Positions 7,787-33,445 of a stretch of DNA of 36,963 nt are shown here, piece after piece. Under the pieces are notes generated by a model. The model had not been told where the DNA came from and did no database searches. It saw nothing but the letters and a program-made list of their open reading frames with translations. Positions within the stretch are counted from its first letter, which is position 1; each line of letters opens with the position of its first letter. Source of the DNA: Pseudomonadota bacterium. Its GTDB lineage: Bacteria; Pseudomonadota; Alphaproteobacteria; Acetobacterales; Acetobacteraceae. The position numbers were made by a program, and so were the translations under genes. The stretch covers positions 1 to 36,963 of the forward strand of contig JAGXAE010000006.1 of NCBI GenBank assembly GCA_018971725.1. Reading direction: 5' to 3'.

Positions 7787-8041
7787 TTAATGCACCAGCG
7801 TCGGCGTCATATCATTCTGGATGATCGCGGCTGCGGCAAGCTGCTGGTCGGCGGCGATGGCTATGGGCGTTCCATCCGCCGCATGGATGGCGAAGGCCGG
7901 GCCGGTCTCGGTCATCACCGGCTTCACGAAGGCAATCTCCTCCAGCCCCAGCAATGCCAGCTGCGCGGCGGAGATGTGATGAATATCCAGCATGGTGCCA
8001 GGGCTGAAATTGGCAGTGCCGTCATGGTTTTTGATGTTCAT
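7787..8041 (-). CDS. DUF1150 family protein
   Basis: An 84-aa soluble protein (MNIKNHDGTANFSPGT...LALLGLEEIAFVKPV...FAIHAADGTPIAIAADQQLAAAAIIQNDM). The LGLEEIAYVKPV-like centre followed by a 'G...IHAADGTP..vA..r..A.a...N.M.p' pattern is what I know as DUF1150, a family found beside small heat-shock genes in alphaproteobacteria. It lies 108 nt downstream of hsp20 on the same strand. Function is not established; the constant pairing with hsp20 suggests a stress-linked role. AAGGAC lies about 7 nt before the ATG. Confidence 0.75.
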   Translation of the reverse strand: MNIKNHDGTANFSPGTMLDIHHISAAQLALLGLEEIAFVKPVMTETGPAFAIHAADGTPIAIAADQQLAAAAIIQNDMTPTLVH

Positions 8042-8149
8042 CGTCTGTCCTTTCAGGCCCTTCTAGCGGGAAATCCCCAGCCTGAAGTCCCATTATGTCT
8101 GAATTAGGGAGAAACTGCGATTTTGCCAGTCAGTTCCCGTAATTGATAT

Positions 8150-26415: not shown

Positions 26416-27729
26416 TTAACCGTGGGAGACAACCTCGCCATGCTGGGTGATGTCGAGCCCCTCGATCTCGTCTTCCTTGGTAACCCGCAGGCCCATGGTG
26501 AGATCGATCAGCTTCAGGATGACATAGCTGACAACAGCGTCGTACACGATGGTGGTGATGATGCCCTCGAGCTGGATGAGAACCTGGCCCGCGTTGCCCT
26601 CGATCAGGCCGGAGTGGCCACCAACAGCCTTGAGCGCGAACACGCCGGTAAGCAGCGCGCCCAGGATGCCGCCGAGGCCGTGCACGCCCCAGACGTCCAG
26701 CGCGTCGTCATAACCGAACATGCCCTTGAAGCCGGTGACGCCCCAGAAGCAGACCACGCCCGCGGCCAGGCCGATGACCAGCGCGCCGCCAACCCCAACG
26801 AAACCGCAAGCCGGGGTGATGGCGACAAGACCGGCAACGGCGCCGGAAACGCCACCCAGCATGCTGGGCTTACCCTTCACCATCCATTCCACGATCACCC
26901 AGGAGAGCACAGCGGCGGAGGTGGCGAGCTGGGTATTGATGGCGGCCATACCAGCCAGACCACCGGCGGTGAGGGCGGAACCAGCATTGAAACCGAACCA
27001 GCCAACCCACAGCAGAGAGGCGCCGATCATGGTGTAAGCCATGTTGGCGGGCGCCATGTTGTCACGGCCATAACCTCCGCGCTTGCCAACCATGATCGCG
27101 GCGATCAGGCCGGGCACAGCGCTGTCGATATGCACGACGGTACCACCGGCGAAATCCAGCACGCCAAGATTGGCCAGGAAGCCGCCAGGACCCCAGACCA
27201 TATGCGCGATCGGGCAGTACACCGCGAGCAGCCAGATACCTACGAACACCATGGAGGAGGAGAACTTCAGGCGGTCAGCCGGGCCGCCCAGGAACAGGGC
27301 AGGAGTGATGATGGCGAAGGTGCACTGGAAGAAGGCAAACACCGTCTCGGGAATGGTGCCGGAAAGGCCGTTCAGCCCCGTTCCCATCAGCATCACGCGG
27401 GAGAAGCCACCAAACAGCGGTGCCAACGGACCGGAACCCTGGGTGAAGGCCAGGCTGTAACCGACGATGCACCACAGAACGGTGACCAGCGCCGTGGTGA
27501 AGAAGCACTGCATCAGCATGGCGAGCATGTTCTTCTTCCGCAGCAGGCCAGCGTAATACAAGGCCAGCCCTGGCACCGTCATCATCAGCACGAGGGCGGA
27601 AGAGGTCAGCATCCAGGCGGTGTCGCCCGAGTTAAGGGTCGGGGCAGCGGTCTGCGCCATGGCGGGCGCGCAGCCGAACGCTGTCAGGCCGAGGCCTACA
27701 GGCACGCCTAAAAGGGATCTTTTCGTCAT
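26416..27729 (-). CDS. amt: Ammonium transporter (AmtB type) with signal peptide
   Basis: A trimeric Amt/Rh channel for NH4+/NH3 uptake. The leader MTKRSLLGVPVGLGLTAFGCAPAMAQ looks cleavable, as in AmtB. The pore histidines are in GGTVVHIDSAVPGL and WGVHGLGGILGALLTGVFA; the AmtB-like GWFGFNAGSALTA and the C-terminal tail (LRVTKEDEIEGLDITQHGEVVSHG), which in AmtB contacts PII, are present. The start is set at the ATG at 27729 (GAGG 5 nt upstream) rather than the tracked 27798, giving 437 aa. No glnK adjoins it, although amtB normally follows glnK. A sigma-54-like promoter lies upstream. Confidence 0.95.
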   Translation of the reverse strand: MTKRSLLGVPVGLGLTAFGCAPAMAQTAAPTLNSGDTAWMLTSSALVLMMTVPGLALYYAGLLRKKNMLAMLMQCFFTTALVTVLWCIVGYSLAFTQGSGPLAPLFGGFSRVMLMGTGLNGLSGTIPETVFAFFQCTFAIITPALFLGGPADRLKFSSSMVFVGIWLLAVYCPIAHMVWGPGGFLANLGVLDFAGGTVVHIDSAVPGLIAAIMVGKRGGYGRDNMAPANMAYTMIGASLLWVGWFGFNAGSALTAGGLAGMAAINTQLATSAAVLSWVIVEWMVKGKPSMLGGVSGAVAGLVAITPACGFVGVGGALVIGLAAGVVCFWGVTGFKGMFGYDDALDVWGVHGLGGILGALLTGVFALKAVGGHSGLIEGNAGQVLIQLEGIITTIVYDAVVSYVILKLIDLTMGLRVTKEDEIEGLDITQHGEVVSHG

Positions 27730-27831
27730 CAAGTCCTCGTTCCTCATTGCGTTGCCTTGACGGCCCGGAGCCCGAACAGGCCGGCAGCGCGTGATCATGA
27801 AAGCTCAGTGCGTTACAAGCGCAGGAAACGA

Positions 27832-27847
27832 AGCAAGGAGCATGCCA
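27832..27847 (-). promoter_or_regulatory. Sigma-54 -24/-12 promoter for the minus-strand amt
   Basis: The minus strand reads TGGCATGCTCCTTGCT. Against TGGCACRNNNNTTGCW this has GG and GC with exactly 10 nt between and one mismatch (T for C in the -24 box). Predicted transcription start is about 27821, giving a ~92-nt leader before the ATG at 27729. Confidence 0.78.
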
Positions 27848-27879
27848 TCCGAAAAAATAAAATCTTTCGGAAATTTTAT
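27848..27879. repeat. Interleaved AT-rich inverted repeats upstream of the amt promoter
   Basis: TCCGAAA (27848-27854) pairs with TTTCGGA (27865-27871), and ATAAAAT (27857-27863) pairs with ATTTTAT (27873-27879). The two overlapping dyads lie just upstream of the -24 box, where IHF or a bending protein would act in a sigma-54 promoter. No protein can be assigned. Confidence 0.5.
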
Positions 27880-28161
27880 CCGCTCAAACGCGGCGTGGTG
27901 GCGTCGCGCTAAAATTCTGGCCACAGCAATGGCACACGTTGCGCAACATTTCTGCACAAAAAATACGCAAATGTTCCAGAAAAGCATGCGAACACCCGGC
28001 GATCCCGGCCCGCGCGCACCGCCATATTGCCAGCGAAACAAGTTCCTTGCCTTGCTTTTTGCTGCAATTTTAAGCGACGGCTTTGCGAAACCCAGCCTTT
28101 TGGGCGGGCGCGGCCGTATGATCTCGCGCTTTGGGCTGAACAATGAACGGCCCGTAAGTCA

Positions 28162-28177
28162 TGGCACAAAACATGCT
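28162..28177 (+). promoter_or_regulatory. Sigma-54 -24/-12 promoter for the plus-strand amt
   Basis: TGGCACAAAACATGCT matches TGGCACRNNNNTTGCW at all but one position (A for the first T of the -12 box), with GG and GC 10 nt apart. Predicted transcription start is about 28188. The tracked ORF start (ATG at 28161) lies inside this element, so the true start must be downstream, at 28263. Confidence 0.85.
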
Positions 28178-28262
28178 TGAATTTTTCACGGATGCCGCGC
28201 GAAACATTGTGGCGTGGCGCCATGTGCAACTGACTTTGGCTGGGACGCATGGAGACGCAACA

Positions 28263-29657
28263 ATGACAATCGTACAAGCTTTGCCGGGCAACTGGCTGGA
28301 TACAGGAGACAACGCCTGGCAGCTTACCGCCGCCACTTTTGTCGGCATAATGAGCATTCCGGGCCTGGCGCTGCTCTATGGCGGTGCAGTGAAGAAAAAA
28401 TGGGCCGTTAACTCGGCCTTCATGGTGTTTTATGCCTTCTCGGCGGTTCTAATTGCCTGGGTGCTGTGGGCCTATAATATGTCCTTCGGCAAACCATGGT
28501 TGAACCTGCCATTCGGCCTTGGGCCTTTCGTCGGGCATCTCGATCCGACCACCTCCGCCTACAATATGGAGAAAGAGGCAATCATCCCCTCCGCCGCTGC
28601 CGCCATGCCAGCCCTTGGCTATGGCCAAGCCACGATGGTGTACTTCCAGTTCGTGTTCGCCGCCATCACGCCGATCATCCTGCTCGGCTCTCTGCTTGGC
28701 CGTGTCAGTTTCAAGGCCTGGATGATTTTCGTACCCCTGTGGACGACGTTCATCTATTCCGTCGGCGCTTATTCATTGTGGGGCGGTGGCTGGCTTTCAG
28801 GCCTGGGCGCCTGGCTTGGCTATAAGGATGCCGCAGGCGTGGTGGATTACTCCGGCGGCTACGTCATCCATCTAGCCTCCGCCGTTTCCGGCTTCACCGC
28901 CGCCGCGATCATCGGCCCGCGTCTGCCACGCGACCGTGAAAGCTTCCAGCCGAATAATCTGCTGATCACCATGGCAGGCGCCGGCCTGCTCTGGCTTGGC
29001 TGGTCCGGCTTCAATGGCGGCGACCCGTTCACCGCCAACGCCGATGCCGGCGTGGGCGTGCTGAACACCCACACCGCCACCGCCGCCGCGCTGCTTACCT
29101 GGACGCTGATGGATGTGCTGGCCTATGGCAAGCCCTCTATCCTGGGTGCGGTGAACGGCATGATCACCGGCCTCGTCGCCATCACCCCTGCCGCTGGCTA
29201 CGTAAACGGCACCGGCGCCATCATCATCGGCATCGCCGCCGCGGCACTGCCCTGGATGACCTGGAACTGGCTCGGCAAAACCAGTCCCATGCGCAAGGTG
29301 GATGACGTGCTGGGCGTGATCCACACGCACGGTGTGGCGGCGATCGTCGGCGGCCTGGGTGTCGGCCTCCTCGCTGACCCCAAGATGATTGAATGGTATG
29401 GCACCAAGAACGATGCCGTCTCCGTAACAGGCTTGTTCTACGGCGACTTCCATCAGTTCATGCTGCAGATTTACGGCGCCGTGTTCATCATCGTCTATAA
29501 CATCGTTGGCACCTTCATTCTGCTGAAGCTCATCGGTCTGCTCGTGCCCCTGCGCATGGATGATGAAACCCTGCTGATCGGTGACGACGCGGTGCATGGC
29601 GAGGAAGCCTACGCAATTTATGCCGACGGCCAGAAAGTACCGGTCCTGGGCGACTAA
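28263..29657 (+). CDS. Second ammonium transporter, divergent Amt clade
   Basis: A 464-aa Amt-family channel clearly different from its neighbour. It has no signal peptide (MTIVQALPGNWLDTGDNAWQLTAATFVG); the pore histidines are in YSGGYVIHLASAVSGF and GVIHTHGVAAIVGGLG, and GLLWLGWSGFNGGDPF replaces the GWFGFNAGS motif. The tail (LRMDDETLLIGDDAVHGEEAYAIYADGQKVPVLGD) is acidic. GGAG lies 8 nt before the ATG. The tracked extension MAQNMLEFF... is hydrophilic and covers the sigma-54 promoter. Having two non-identical Amts from one regulatory spacer suggests different affinities or PII control, which is inference. Confidence 0.94.
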   Translation: MTIVQALPGNWLDTGDNAWQLTAATFVGIMSIPGLALLYGGAVKKKWAVNSAFMVFYAFSAVLIAWVLWAYNMSFGKPWLNLPFGLGPFVGHLDPTTSAYNMEKEAIIPSAAAAMPALGYGQATMVYFQFVFAAITPIILLGSLLGRVSFKAWMIFVPLWTTFIYSVGAYSLWGGGWLSGLGAWLGYKDAAGVVDYSGGYVIHLASAVSGFTAAAIIGPRLPRDRESFQPNNLLITMAGAGLLWLGWSGFNGGDPFTANADAGVGVLNTHTATAAALLTWTLMDVLAYGKPSILGAVNGMITGLVAITPAAGYVNGTGAIIIGIAAAALPWMTWNWLGKTSPMRKVDDVLGVIHTHGVAAIVGGLGVGLLADPKMIEWYGTKNDAVSVTGLFYGDFHQFMLQIYGAVFIIVYNIVGTFILLKLIGLLVPLRMDDETLLIGDDAVHGEEAYAIYADGQKVPVLGD

Positions 29658-29758: not shown

Positions 29759-30940
29759 ATGACGCAAGCATGCGATATCGCGGTGGTGGGTGCTGGCCCG
29801 GTGGGCGGCACTCTGGCTCTGGCCTTGGCGGCACGGGGCCGCAAGGTTCTTTTGGTCGACAAGGCCGATCTGAAACCCATGGAGAACCCGAATTTCGACG
29901 GACGTGCCTATGCCATCGCGCATGGGTGCAAGCCTCTGCTGCAAGAGGCCGGACTGTGGGAACGCCTGCCCTTCGCCCCCTGCCCGATTCTGGATATCGA
30001 CGTGACAGACGGCAAGCCGGGCCGCGCGCCCTCGCCCCTGAAGCTGCATTTCGACCATAAAGCCGTGGGCGACGACCCGTTCGGCTGGATCATTGAGGCA
30101 CGCTCCGTGCGCGTGGCGCTGAATGCGGCTCTGGCGGAGTCAGACGTGATTGTCCGCGCCCCGGCGGAGGCTCTGGTGAGCCGCCATGCGGAGAGTGCCA
30201 TCGTGCAGGTGGGGGATGAACGGTTCAAGACGAAGCTGGTGGTGGCAGCGGAGGGCCGGCAATCTCCGTTGCGCAACCAGGCTGGTATCAGCGTGACCCG
30301 CCTGCCCTACAAGCAGACGGCGGTGATTTTTGCCGTGGCGCATGAGGTGCCGCACAACAACGTGGCGCTGGAACATTTCCTGCCAGGCGGACCATTCGCG
30401 GTGCTGCCAATGACCGGCACGGCGGAACACCCCAACCTCTCCGCCGTCGTATTCACCGAGAGCGATACGAATGCCAAGCTGCTCTATGGCATGGATGATG
30501 CCGGGCTGCTGCGGGCGGTGCAGGCGCGGCTGGGCAACCGGCTGGGTCGGCTGGAACTGGCCGGGCGGCGCTGGCTCTACCCGCTCTATGCCATGTACGC
30601 GGCGCGCTATTACGATACGCGCCTGGCCTTGGCCGGAGATGCCGCGCATGGCGTGCACCCCATCGCGGGACAGGGCTTGAATTTGGGGCTGAGGGATGCC
30701 GCCGCGCTGCTGGATCTGGCGGGTGCCGCGGATGACCCAGGCGCGGAGTCTGCGCTGCGCGCCTATCAGGCGAAGCAACGGCCTATCAACATGGCGATGC
30801 TGCTGGGCATGGACGCGTTGGACCGGCTCTTCTCCAACAATTTCCCACCGGTTCGGTTGGTGCGGGACCTCGGCCTTGCGGCGGTGGAGCGCATGCCGCG
30901 CCTGAAGCAGCGCTTTATGCTGGCGGCCATGGGGCGGTAG
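29759..30940 (+). CDS. UbiH/UbiF/COQ6-family FAD-dependent hydroxylase
   Basis: A flavoprotein monooxygenase of the ubiquinone-biosynthesis type, which hydroxylates the benzoquinone ring precursor. The N-terminal dinucleotide-binding motif is VVGAGPVGGTLALALAARG; the second FAD motif is LALAGDAAHGVHPIAGQGLNLGLRDAAALLDL, with the GD and the UbiH signature HPIAGQGLNLGLRD. At 393 aa it is full length. Which ring position it uses (UbiH, UbiF, UbiI or UbiL-like) cannot be told. It stands alone after the amt terminator and is convergent with the next gene. Confidence 0.93.
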   Translation: MTQACDIAVVGAGPVGGTLALALAARGRKVLLVDKADLKPMENPNFDGRAYAIAHGCKPLLQEAGLWERLPFAPCPILDIDVTDGKPGRAPSPLKLHFDHKAVGDDPFGWIIEARSVRVALNAALAESDVIVRAPAEALVSRHAESAIVQVGDERFKTKLVVAAEGRQSPLRNQAGISVTRLPYKQTAVIFAVAHEVPHNNVALEHFLPGGPFAVLPMTGTAEHPNLSAVVFTESDTNAKLLYGMDDAGLLRAVQARLGNRLGRLELAGRRWLYPLYAMYAARYYDTRLALAGDAAHGVHPIAGQGLNLGLRDAAALLDLAGAADDPGAESALRAYQAKQRPINMAMLLGMDALDRLFSNNFPPVRLVRDLGLAAVERMPRLKQRFMLAAMGR

Positions 30941-30948
30941 GTAACCGA

Positions 30949-31473
30949 CTAACTGCCGATAACCTTTATATCAAGAGGCTTTTCGCCCTTCATGAGTTTT
31001 GCAAGACCCTGCCTAATGGCCAATTGATCCGTGCTTTCGTCGACATGCCCTTGAGGGAAATATACTCCTCTTTTTAGACTAACGTCGTTAAAATCGTAGC
31101 CTAGTGACTTGCCCATAGCTTTCAGCAAGGAGATCAATAAGCCTGTTCCTTTTTCAAAATGGGTTCGTGCCTCGCCCTCACTTTGCGGAATTTTTTCATT
31201 AAGAAAATCAAGGTAATTTGCCCAAGCGTCTCTTACTTCTTTATCTTTTCTATTTGTCCCATCAAATAATAACTCAATCAAATTTAACGCTTGAACATGA
31301 TCATTTGATCCGCCCCTAACGGCGCGAGTTGCCATCAGAGTTTGGAACAGCATCCTTTTGCGTTCCTTTCGATTTTGTGAACGTTCAAGCCATTTTTGTG
31401 CTTGGACAGCCGCCACTGGCCCCAAAATAGTAGCTGCGATGAGCAGCCCATCTGACACAGTGATCCCAGTCAA
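30949..31473 (-). CDS. Small membrane-anchored DUF6680-like protein in AT-rich DNA
   Basis: A 174-aa protein with one N-terminal hydrophobic segment (SDGLLIAATILGPVAAVQAQ), a basic juxtamembrane stretch (KWLERSQNRKERKRMLFQTLMATRA), and a helical soluble part with HVQALNLIELLFDG and VRDAWANYLDFLN. This layout matches what I know as DUF6680, a family without established function; the assignment is from memory. The start is TTG at 31473 with GGAGAGGG 7 nt upstream. Base composition is visibly more AT-rich than its neighbours and codon use differs (many AAA, AAT, TTT). It ends 8 nt from the hydroxylase stop, in convergent orientation. Recent horizontal gain is likely. Confidence 0.8.
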   Translation of the reverse strand: MTGITVSDGLLIAATILGPVAAVQAQKWLERSQNRKERKRMLFQTLMATRAVRGGSNDHVQALNLIELLFDGTNRKDKEVRDAWANYLDFLNEKIPQSEGEARTHFEKGTGLLISLLKAMGKSLGYDFNDVSLKRGVYFPQGHVDESTDQLAIRQGLAKLMKGEKPLDIKVIGS

Positions 31474-31578
31474 CGTTCAACCCTCTCCTGAAACGAGAAA
31501 GCAACGATCGGCTTTTTCCACCTAAGCCTCCTCAACCCCCACAATATTTTTATTATTACACTTCTGCAATTCATTCTC

Positions 31579-31619
31579 CTAGATAACAAATTGCAAAATA
31601 CATCAATGCGTTATCCTAG
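31579..31619. repeat. 41-bp imperfect inverted repeat upstream of the antiporter gene
   Basis: CTAGATAAC-AA-ATTG pairs with CAAT-GC-GTTATCCTAG around CAAAATACAT, with one bulged C and a 2-nt internal loop. It lies in the AT-rich spacer between the divergent DUF6680-like and CPA2 genes, 30 nt before the CPA2 ATG. It may be an operator or the mark of an insertion; no T-tract makes it a terminator. Confidence 0.6.
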
Positions 31620-31648
31620 AAGCTCCTTTCTGTAGTAAATAACCTATC

Positions 31649-33445
31649 ATGTTCCTGACTCTTCTCATTCTTCTGGCCGCCATCGTGCTGGCCGTCCCGC
31701 TCTCCCGTTATGCGGGGCTGGGAAGCATTCTGGGCTATCTCGTCGCGGGGGTGGTCATCGGCCCTTCCGTGCTGGGGCTGGTGACCAATGTAAACGAGAT
31801 CAGCGATGTGTCGGAACTCGGCGTGACCATGCTGCTGTTCCTGATCGGGCTGGAACTGCGGCCGCATCGGCTATGGGTGCTGCGCAAGGCGGTGTTTGGC
31901 CTCGGGCTGGGGCAGATGGTGCCCACCTCCCTGGTGCTGGCTGGCATTTTGATACTGTTCGAGGTGCCACTGCGCGATGCCGTGGTGCTGGGCATCGGGC
32001 TGGCGCTGTCCTCCACCGCCATCACCCTGCCCTTGCTGTCTGAACGCAATCTGCTGCCCACCATACCGGGACGCGACGCTTTTGCCGTGCTGCTGTTCCA
32101 GGATATGGCGGCGATTCCGGTGCTAGCCCTGCTGCCAATTTTAGCAGGCGGCGGCACGGAACATTTCTCCTGGCTGGCGGTGGCGCGGGGGGCGGCCGTG
32201 GTGGCGGCCATTCTGGCGGGCGGTTATTTGCTGGTGCCCTATGTGTTCCGCATGGTGGCGGCGGCCAAAGTGCCGGAAGTATTCACCGCCACCGCGCTGC
32301 TGCTGGTGGTGGGTACGGCGGCGCTGGCGCACTGGGCGGAGCTCTCGGCCTCTCTGGGCGCGTTCCTGGCCGGGGTGATGGTTTCGGATTCGGAATACCG
32401 GCACGAGTTGCAGGCTGACATCGAACCCTTCGAGGGGCTGTTGCTGGGGTTCTTCTTCATCTCCGTCGGCATGTCAGCCGACCTGGGGCTGCTGGAGCAC
32501 AGGCCGCTGGAAATTCTGCTGCTGGTAATCGGGCTTTCCGTGGTGAAAGCGGGCATTGCCTTCGTGGTCAGCTATCTGCGCCGCCGCCTGTCCGGCGCGG
32601 CCCTGCGCTTTGCTCTGGCCTTGCCGGAGGGCAGCGAATTCAGTTTTGTGCTGTTCGCGGCGGCAGTGGCGGCGGGCACGCTGGACAAAGTTCTGGCGGC
32701 GGAAGCCACGCTGGTGGTAGCGCTCTCAATGATGGTGGCGCCGATCCTGTTCGCCGGATCGGAACGCTTCGTGATGCCGAAGCTGGAAGCAAAGAAGAAA
32801 CAGCGCCCGTTCGACAAGTTCGAGGACACGCAATCCGCCCCGGTGATCATCTGCGGGTTCGGGCGCGTGGGGCAGATTGTCGGGCGCGTGCTGGCGATGC
32901 AGAATATCCGCTTCACGGCCTTGGACCGCAGCTCATCCCAGGTGGATTTCGTTCGCCGCTTCGGCGTGAAAGTGTTTTACGGCGACCCTGCGCGCGAGGA
33001 GGTAATGCGTTCAGCCGGCGCGGAAAGCGCGAAGGTGCTGGTGATCGCGCTGGATGACATGGCTGCCGGCGTGGCGGTGGCGGAAATGGTGCGGCGTAAA
33101 TTTCCACAGCTGCGGGTGGTGGCCAGAGCGCGCAACCGCCACCATGTGCATCTGCTGATGGGGGCAGGCGTTGACTTGTTCGTGCGCGAAACGTTTTTCT
33201 CATCTCTACGGTTGACCGAAATCGTTCTGGATGAACTGGAAGTTCCCCAGGAGCAGACCCGGCACGCCATCGAATTGTTCCGCAAGCATGACGAGAGAAT
33301 CCTGAATGAAAGCTATGGCTTCGGGAATGACGAGGCCAAGTTGATCCAGACCGTTCAGGAAGCCGCGAAGGACCTGCAGGAAGTGTTCGAGGCGGATATG
33401 AGTGACTTCAACAAGGGCAAAAGCCAGGACGGCGCGGCAGCGTGA
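31649..33445 (+). CDS. CPA2-family K+/H+ antiporter (KefB/C-like) with RCK domain
   Basis: A 598-aa monovalent cation:proton antiporter. The first ~385 residues are a multi-helix Na+/H+-exchanger-type domain (LGSILGYLVAGVVIGPSVLGL; MLLFLIGLELRP; LALSSTAITLPLLSERNLL; LGAFLAGVMVSDSEYRHEL). The C-terminal part is a Rossmann TrkA-N/RCK domain (VIICGFGRVGQIVGRVLA) able to bind nucleotide or glutathione. It resembles KefB/KefC, which expel K+ and acidify the cell during electrophile stress. No KefF/G partner is adjacent. The ribosome site before the ATG is poor. Its TGA is one base from the pbp stop on the other strand. Confidence 0.94.
   Translation: MFLTLLILLAAIVLAVPLSRYAGLGSILGYLVAGVVIGPSVLGLVTNVNEISDVSELGVTMLLFLIGLELRPHRLWVLRKAVFGLGLGQMVPTSLVLAGILILFEVPLRDAVVLGIGLALSSTAITLPLLSERNLLPTIPGRDAFAVLLFQDMAAIPVLALLPILAGGGTEHFSWLAVARGAAVVAAILAGGYLLVPYVFRMVAAAKVPEVFTATALLLVVGTAALAHWAELSASLGAFLAGVMVSDSEYRHELQADIEPFEGLLLGFFFISVGMSADLGLLEHRPLEILLLVIGLSVVKAGIAFVVSYLRRRLSGAALRFALALPEGSEFSFVLFAAAVAAGTLDKVLAAEATLVVALSMMVAPILFAGSERFVMPKLEAKKKQRPFDKFEDTQSAPVIICGFGRVGQIVGRVLAMQNIRFTALDRSSSQVDFVRRFGVKVFYGDPAREEVMRSAGAESAKVLVIALDDMAAGVAVAEMVRRKFPQLRVVARARNRHHVHLLMGAGVDLFVRETFFSSLRLTEIVLDELEVPQEQTRHAIELFRKHDERILNESYGFGNDEAKLIQTVQEAAKDLQEVFEADMSDFNKGKSQDGAAA

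Follow-up and report, generated by a model that had tools for sequence, protein, structure and literature searches.

A solitary DUF6680 gene acquired between ubiH and kefB, a candidate one-gene anti-phage factor from mobile elements

The window analysed here is a stretch of 36,963 nucleotides of DNA from an Acetobacteraceae genome (contig JAGXAE010000006.1). At positions 30949..31473, its minus strand encodes a protein of 174 amino acids that begins at a TTG codon. A putative ribosome-binding site, AGGAGAGG (31482..31489, minus strand), is located about 8 nt upstream of this start and reads as a good one. The protein matches the Pfam family DUF6680 (PF20385; E=4.4e-49) with 166.9 bits over profile positions 3-162 of 170, compared with a curated cut-off of 23.2 bits, and is a true member of this family. 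The sequence-only reading had called the protein DUF6680-like and had named a missing Pfam hit as the outcome against it; the HMM search placed it in the family far above the cut-off. The reading frame is full length and all five invariant residues of the family are kept. It is the sole copy in its genome (assembly about 86% complete).

Both neighbours are host core genes on the plus strand. A UbiH-type FAD monooxygenase gene (29759..30940; PF01494) adjoins kefB in nine congeners, and the KefB-type antiporter gene (31649..33445; PF00999 and PF02254) is present in 18 congeners. The DUF6680 gene diverges from kefB (head-to-head) and converges on ubiH (tail-to-tail). The 8 nt between two stop codons, described from the sequence earlier, were found at the ubiH-like gene, which ends at 30940. 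Between the start codons of DUF6680 and kefB, positions 31562-31620 contain imperfect repeats, both inverted and direct (CCTAGATAAC / GTTATCCTAG), which may serve as an operator or form a hairpin.

The composition of the gene is foreign to its surroundings. Stretches of 525 bp across the window have a mean GC of 0.627 (SD 0.037). The minimum, 0.417 at 31126, lies in the DUF6680 gene, and the minimum outside it is 0.526. The whole gene has a GC of 0.44 and a GC3 of 0.40, compared with a GC3 of 0.68-0.87 in ORFs that are clearly genes. Two doubtful ORFs have values of 0.58 (7790-8107) and 0.53 (27791-28180). These numbers bear out the AT-richness and foreign codon use noted before. Elsewhere in the window, two ammonium transporter genes stand head-to-head (26416-29657) with an AT-richer spacer of GC ~0.53-0.54.

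The history of the locus was studied in the 37 other genomes of the genus. The kefB locus was obtained from 18 of them, and 17 loci were informative, each with up to 1.5 kb of upstream DNA; L030 covers the 3' part of kefB only. DUF6680 was detected by tblastn at none of the 18 loci (17 with upstream DNA), and the family HMM found no DUF6680 in 15 congeners. In nine loci, ubiH lies directly before kefB, with a spacer of 44-193 bp. The closest relative (L013/G318) has 98% identity in KefB, 96% in UbiH and a spacer of 88 bp. In place of this spacer, the window has a tract of 708 bp (30941..31648), without detectable similarity, between the stop of ubiH and the start of kefB. Because the nearest relative has 88 bp instead of 708 bp and no congeneric kefB locus studied holds the gene, the presence of DUF6680 between ubiH and kefB is, judged by sequence comparison, a gain and not a loss. 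The sequence-only reading had proposed a gene acquired between core genes at 30949-31648, in agreement with the inserted tract of 30941-31648. Homologues at this locus in all relatives, its stated counter-case, are not what the presence/absence comparison revealed, since the congeneric kefB loci obtained and the 15 congeners scanned are without DUF6680.

Traces of a vehicle were sought at the site: there is no integrase and no tRNA, and the repeats are short and imperfect only. Recombination through the flanks is one possible route of arrival. Between ubiH and kefB, no phage or satellite genes accompany the window copy, which thus lies outside any recognisable element. Among seven nearby window proteins scanned, no defence genes were recognised.

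The protein layout is constant in 49 sequences of the family: a hydrophobic stretch is followed in most by a basic one and then by the motifs FxTLMATR, HVxALNxI and YxP. P19, R50, N64, Y138 and P140 are invariant. In the window protein, with all positions on the minus strand, a membrane helix is predicted for residues 9-25 (31399..31449; hydropathy 1.84 over 17 residues), oriented N-out. The basic stretch covers residues 26-40 (31354..31398) with 7 K/R versus 2 D/E in 15 residues. Column counts over the 49 sequences define FQTLMATR at residues 43-50 (31324..31347) with the invariant R50, HVQALNLI at residues 59-66 (31276..31299) with N64, and YxP at residues 138-140 (31054..31062) with Y138 and P140. 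The positive-inside rule predicts an N-terminus outside and a cytoplasmic domain. The AlphaFold2 model is all-helical without strands, with a mean pLDDT of 92.4, and one helix of residues 6-48 includes the membrane segment. Hydropathy, charge counts and model agree with the single membrane segment, basic patch and helical domain recognised in the sequence-only reading. A structure search with the model gave no match at E<=0.001 in PDB or BFVD (viral), and a sequence profile search against PDB stayed at chance level (best E=0.15). An identification as phage holin was rejected: the window protein has no PHROG match at E<=0.01, and one of 20 relatives matches a holin PHROG weakly (E=0.0033).

DUF6680 is rare and scattered. 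Among 299 genomes sampled from the order, 8 carry it; the counts are 12 for 399 genomes of the phylum and 6 for 369 of a second class. Broken or partial copies occur in several genomes (G485, G598, G744, G1010 and G1027). The GC of chromosomal copies is often far below that of the surroundings, for example 0.32 versus 0.52, 0.44 versus 0.61 and 0.49 versus 0.62. Viral and chromosomal sequences are intermingled in the tree built from 49 copies. The nearest kin of the window copy, at ~40% identity, belongs to another genus of the same family, and no DUF6680 copy exceeds 45%; with best identities of ~40-45%, no recent donor is known. The window protein as single query retrieved only one weak relative from the genome contigs. 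The Klebsiella and satellite copies, used as DNA queries, gave no match in E. coli genomes. L050, L051 and L052 form a divergent branch of DUF6680 inside the family to which the window belongs. In two of them, L051 and L052, DUF6680 is directly preceded by similar small genes that look EGxY/GrlR-like by eye, and a resolvase-like gene is located nearby in L050 and L051.

The scan of viral contigs with the DUF6680 alignment yielded 40 loci, near-duplicates among them. Nine are P4-like satellites, defined by an alpha primase with Psu, Ogr/Delta and AlpA; psu is present in eight of them, all but L110, whose contig is short. The nine share the order alpha, DUF6680, small ribbon-helix-helix gene (PF05534), the last being on the strand opposite to DUF6680. 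A scan for this second gene detected 25 contigs, with DUF6680 nearby in 8 and not in 17. The two genes are therefore not an obligate pair. A toxin-antitoxin module was also discarded: the window gene has no partner gene, and the satellite ribbon-helix-helix gene is without a nearby DUF6680 in the 17 contigs. Two sister satellites carry other cargo beside the ribbon-helix-helix gene: a SIR2_2 gene in L128 (479-2273; PADLOC PDC-S25, E=2e-182), and a PDC-M11A gene (E=5e-132) together with an ASCH gene in L126 (475-2900). From the cargo of L128 and L126 follows that DUF6680 alternates with PADLOC defence candidates. According to the tree, two separate DUF6680 lineages occupy the satellite slot, L114 and the group of L093, L101, L105 and L110. 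The slot itself, from the alpha primase to the small ribbon-helix-helix gene, was seen in L126, L128, L093, L101, L105 and L114. A known defence hotspot of P4-like satellites is psu-int (Rousset et al. 2022, PMC9122126). In L105, psu-int is occupied by a CAP12/Pycsar-type TIR gene, and the DUF6680 slot behind alpha is distinct from the published hotspot.

Temperate phages and genomic islands carry the gene as well. In the P2-like Yersinia phage vB_YenM_31.17, DUF6680 is located between gpA and the portal gene gpQ. The gpA-gpQ stretch of P2 carries tin and old. Anti-phage activity of both has been confirmed (PMC9122126). In 28 viral contigs, ten integrase proteins were among the DUF6680 neighbours within 4 kb; an integrase near DUF6680 was checked singly for viral L082, L084, L090, L117 and L118 and chromosomal L060. 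In 6 of 23 chromosomal loci, a tRNA or tmRNA 3' end is immediately followed by DUF6680. Three of the six are selC loci from genomes of a single family, with two of the DUF6680 copies decayed, and the others involve a tRNA-Pro, a tRNA-His and a tmRNA. By chance, this would occur with a probability of ~3e-7, or ~1e-4 for 4 of 21 with selC counted once, if a tRNA immediately precedes ~1.2% of genes, which is our estimate. In L076 (140-3161), the tmRNA gene is followed by a frameshifted DUF6680, integrase remnants and, 2.6 kb on, a 26-bp duplicate of the 3' end of the tmRNA; from these features, the stretch is recognised as a small dead element of 2.6 kb. Judged by genomic context, DUF6680 is a family of mobile-element cargo, carried by prophages, P4-like satellites and tRNA islands.

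The neighbourhood survey of homologues, a check proposed beforehand, met defence-type genes near several of them in an uncontrolled listing. It includes EcoO109I, GmrSD-type and DUF6602 genes, AAA_15 ATPases close to AriA and PtuA, DUF3644 (PDC-S19) and, near L052, type I restriction. Prophage ends are rich in defence-type genes anyway and hold non-defence cargo too. In L100 (7538-9975), a downstream ApeA-type HEPN gene, assigned by Pfam without a PADLOC call, overlaps DUF6680 by 4 nt, which suggests an occasional two-gene operon.

Other interpretations of the window gene were weighed against these observations. Its placement between kefB and ubiH, in the head-to-head and tail-to-tail orientations given above, would suit a protein that cooperates with, or regulates, the KefB-type antiporter or ubiquinone metabolism. 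Yet DUF6680 is absent from all congeneric kefB loci with upstream DNA, other Pfam-scanned DUF6680 loci have no antiporter neighbour and contexts differ everywhere. Such a role is very improbable, the occurrence data ruling it out for the most part. A neutral or decaying passenger without present function in this genome would have the foreign composition, the rarity and the broken copies seen in several genomes, but the window copy is full length and retains a good ribosome-binding site and the five invariant residues. This interpretation is rather improbable.

The regular association with integrating elements and att sites, and the frequent decay of chromosomal copies, can also be explained by a gene that serves the mobile element itself, in maintenance, lysogeny control or satellite-helper interference. 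It would have no general anti-phage role and the window copy would be a stranded remnant. An element function does not sit easily with a gene that is optional in satellites (8 of the 25 contigs with the neighbouring backbone gene) and alternates there with defence candidates, nor with intact solo copies without an element, such as that of the window. We consider it somewhat unlikely.

The interpretation favoured here, with modest confidence, is an acquired, solitary piece of mobile-element cargo that encodes a small inner-membrane protein, most likely acting alone as an anti-phage factor. The window gene is probably a one-gene phage-defence factor because its relatives sit where anti-phage genes are kept. 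The sequence-only reading had suggested a phage-defence or stress effector. The defence part gains support from relatives in cargo slots, at att sites and near defence genes, and nothing favours a stress role. Anti-phage activity, trigger and effect are deduced by association, from the location of the relatives. By itself, the window gene looks like an ordinary acquired gene; it is the family that appears as a good defence candidate by association. No protein model of PADLOC-DB 2.0 matches the window protein at E<=1, no mention of DUF6680 or PF20385 was found in the papers searched, and the PDB, BFVD and profile searches revealed no sequence or fold match to a known effector.

Comparison with described systems outlines how such a protein might work. 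The window protein resembles PF20385 members in its full-length match, invariant residues and N-terminal membrane helix, and differs in a C-terminal tail shorter than that of many members and in its solo location in a core region rather than in a recognisable element. As with the defence genes of P4-like satellites and P2-like phages (PMC9122126), its relatives are carried by some of these elements and not by others; the satellite slot, however, lies behind alpha, not at psu-int, and the window gene itself is outside both kinds of element. PdpSau and AbiP are single-gene abortive-infection proteins of prophages or plasmids with an N-terminal membrane anchor and a cytoplasmic domain (PMC10127798). 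DUF6680, with an anchor predicted from hydropathy and charge, has a similar plan, a comparison of how the proteins may work. There is no sequence link, and the OB-like nucleic-acid-binding domain of PdpSau and AbiP contrasts with the all-helical DUF6680 model. The N-terminus is predicted N-in for PdpSau (PMC10127798) and N-out for DUF6680. Superinfection-exclusion proteins of the P22 SieA type are likewise inner-membrane proteins supplied by prophages (PMC10883804), the location of DUF6680 being a prediction, but no sequence or fold link between SieA and DUF6680 was found.

In the proposed anti-phage mechanism, the N-terminal helix would cross the inner membrane, extend as a basic helix and bear the helical domain in the cytoplasm. 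This domain would encounter either a signal of infection or a component of the incoming phage. The protein might then block the infection or disturb the membrane, like single-gene superinfection-exclusion or abortive-infection proteins. Candidate actions are phage DNA exclusion, the block of a phage step or cell killing.

We tentatively propose that the family as a whole is an unrecognised group of anti-phage proteins, each encoded by a single gene and anchored in the membrane, whose predicted helical fold has no solved relative in the searches made here. P4-like satellites, temperate phages and tRNA islands would disperse them, and once in a chromosome, as in the window, they could function by themselves. 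An uncharacterised Pfam family becomes a concrete candidate, with solo genes of ~170-250 codons in alternation with defence candidates behind alpha. The satellite slot behind alpha may harbour further unrecognised defence genes.
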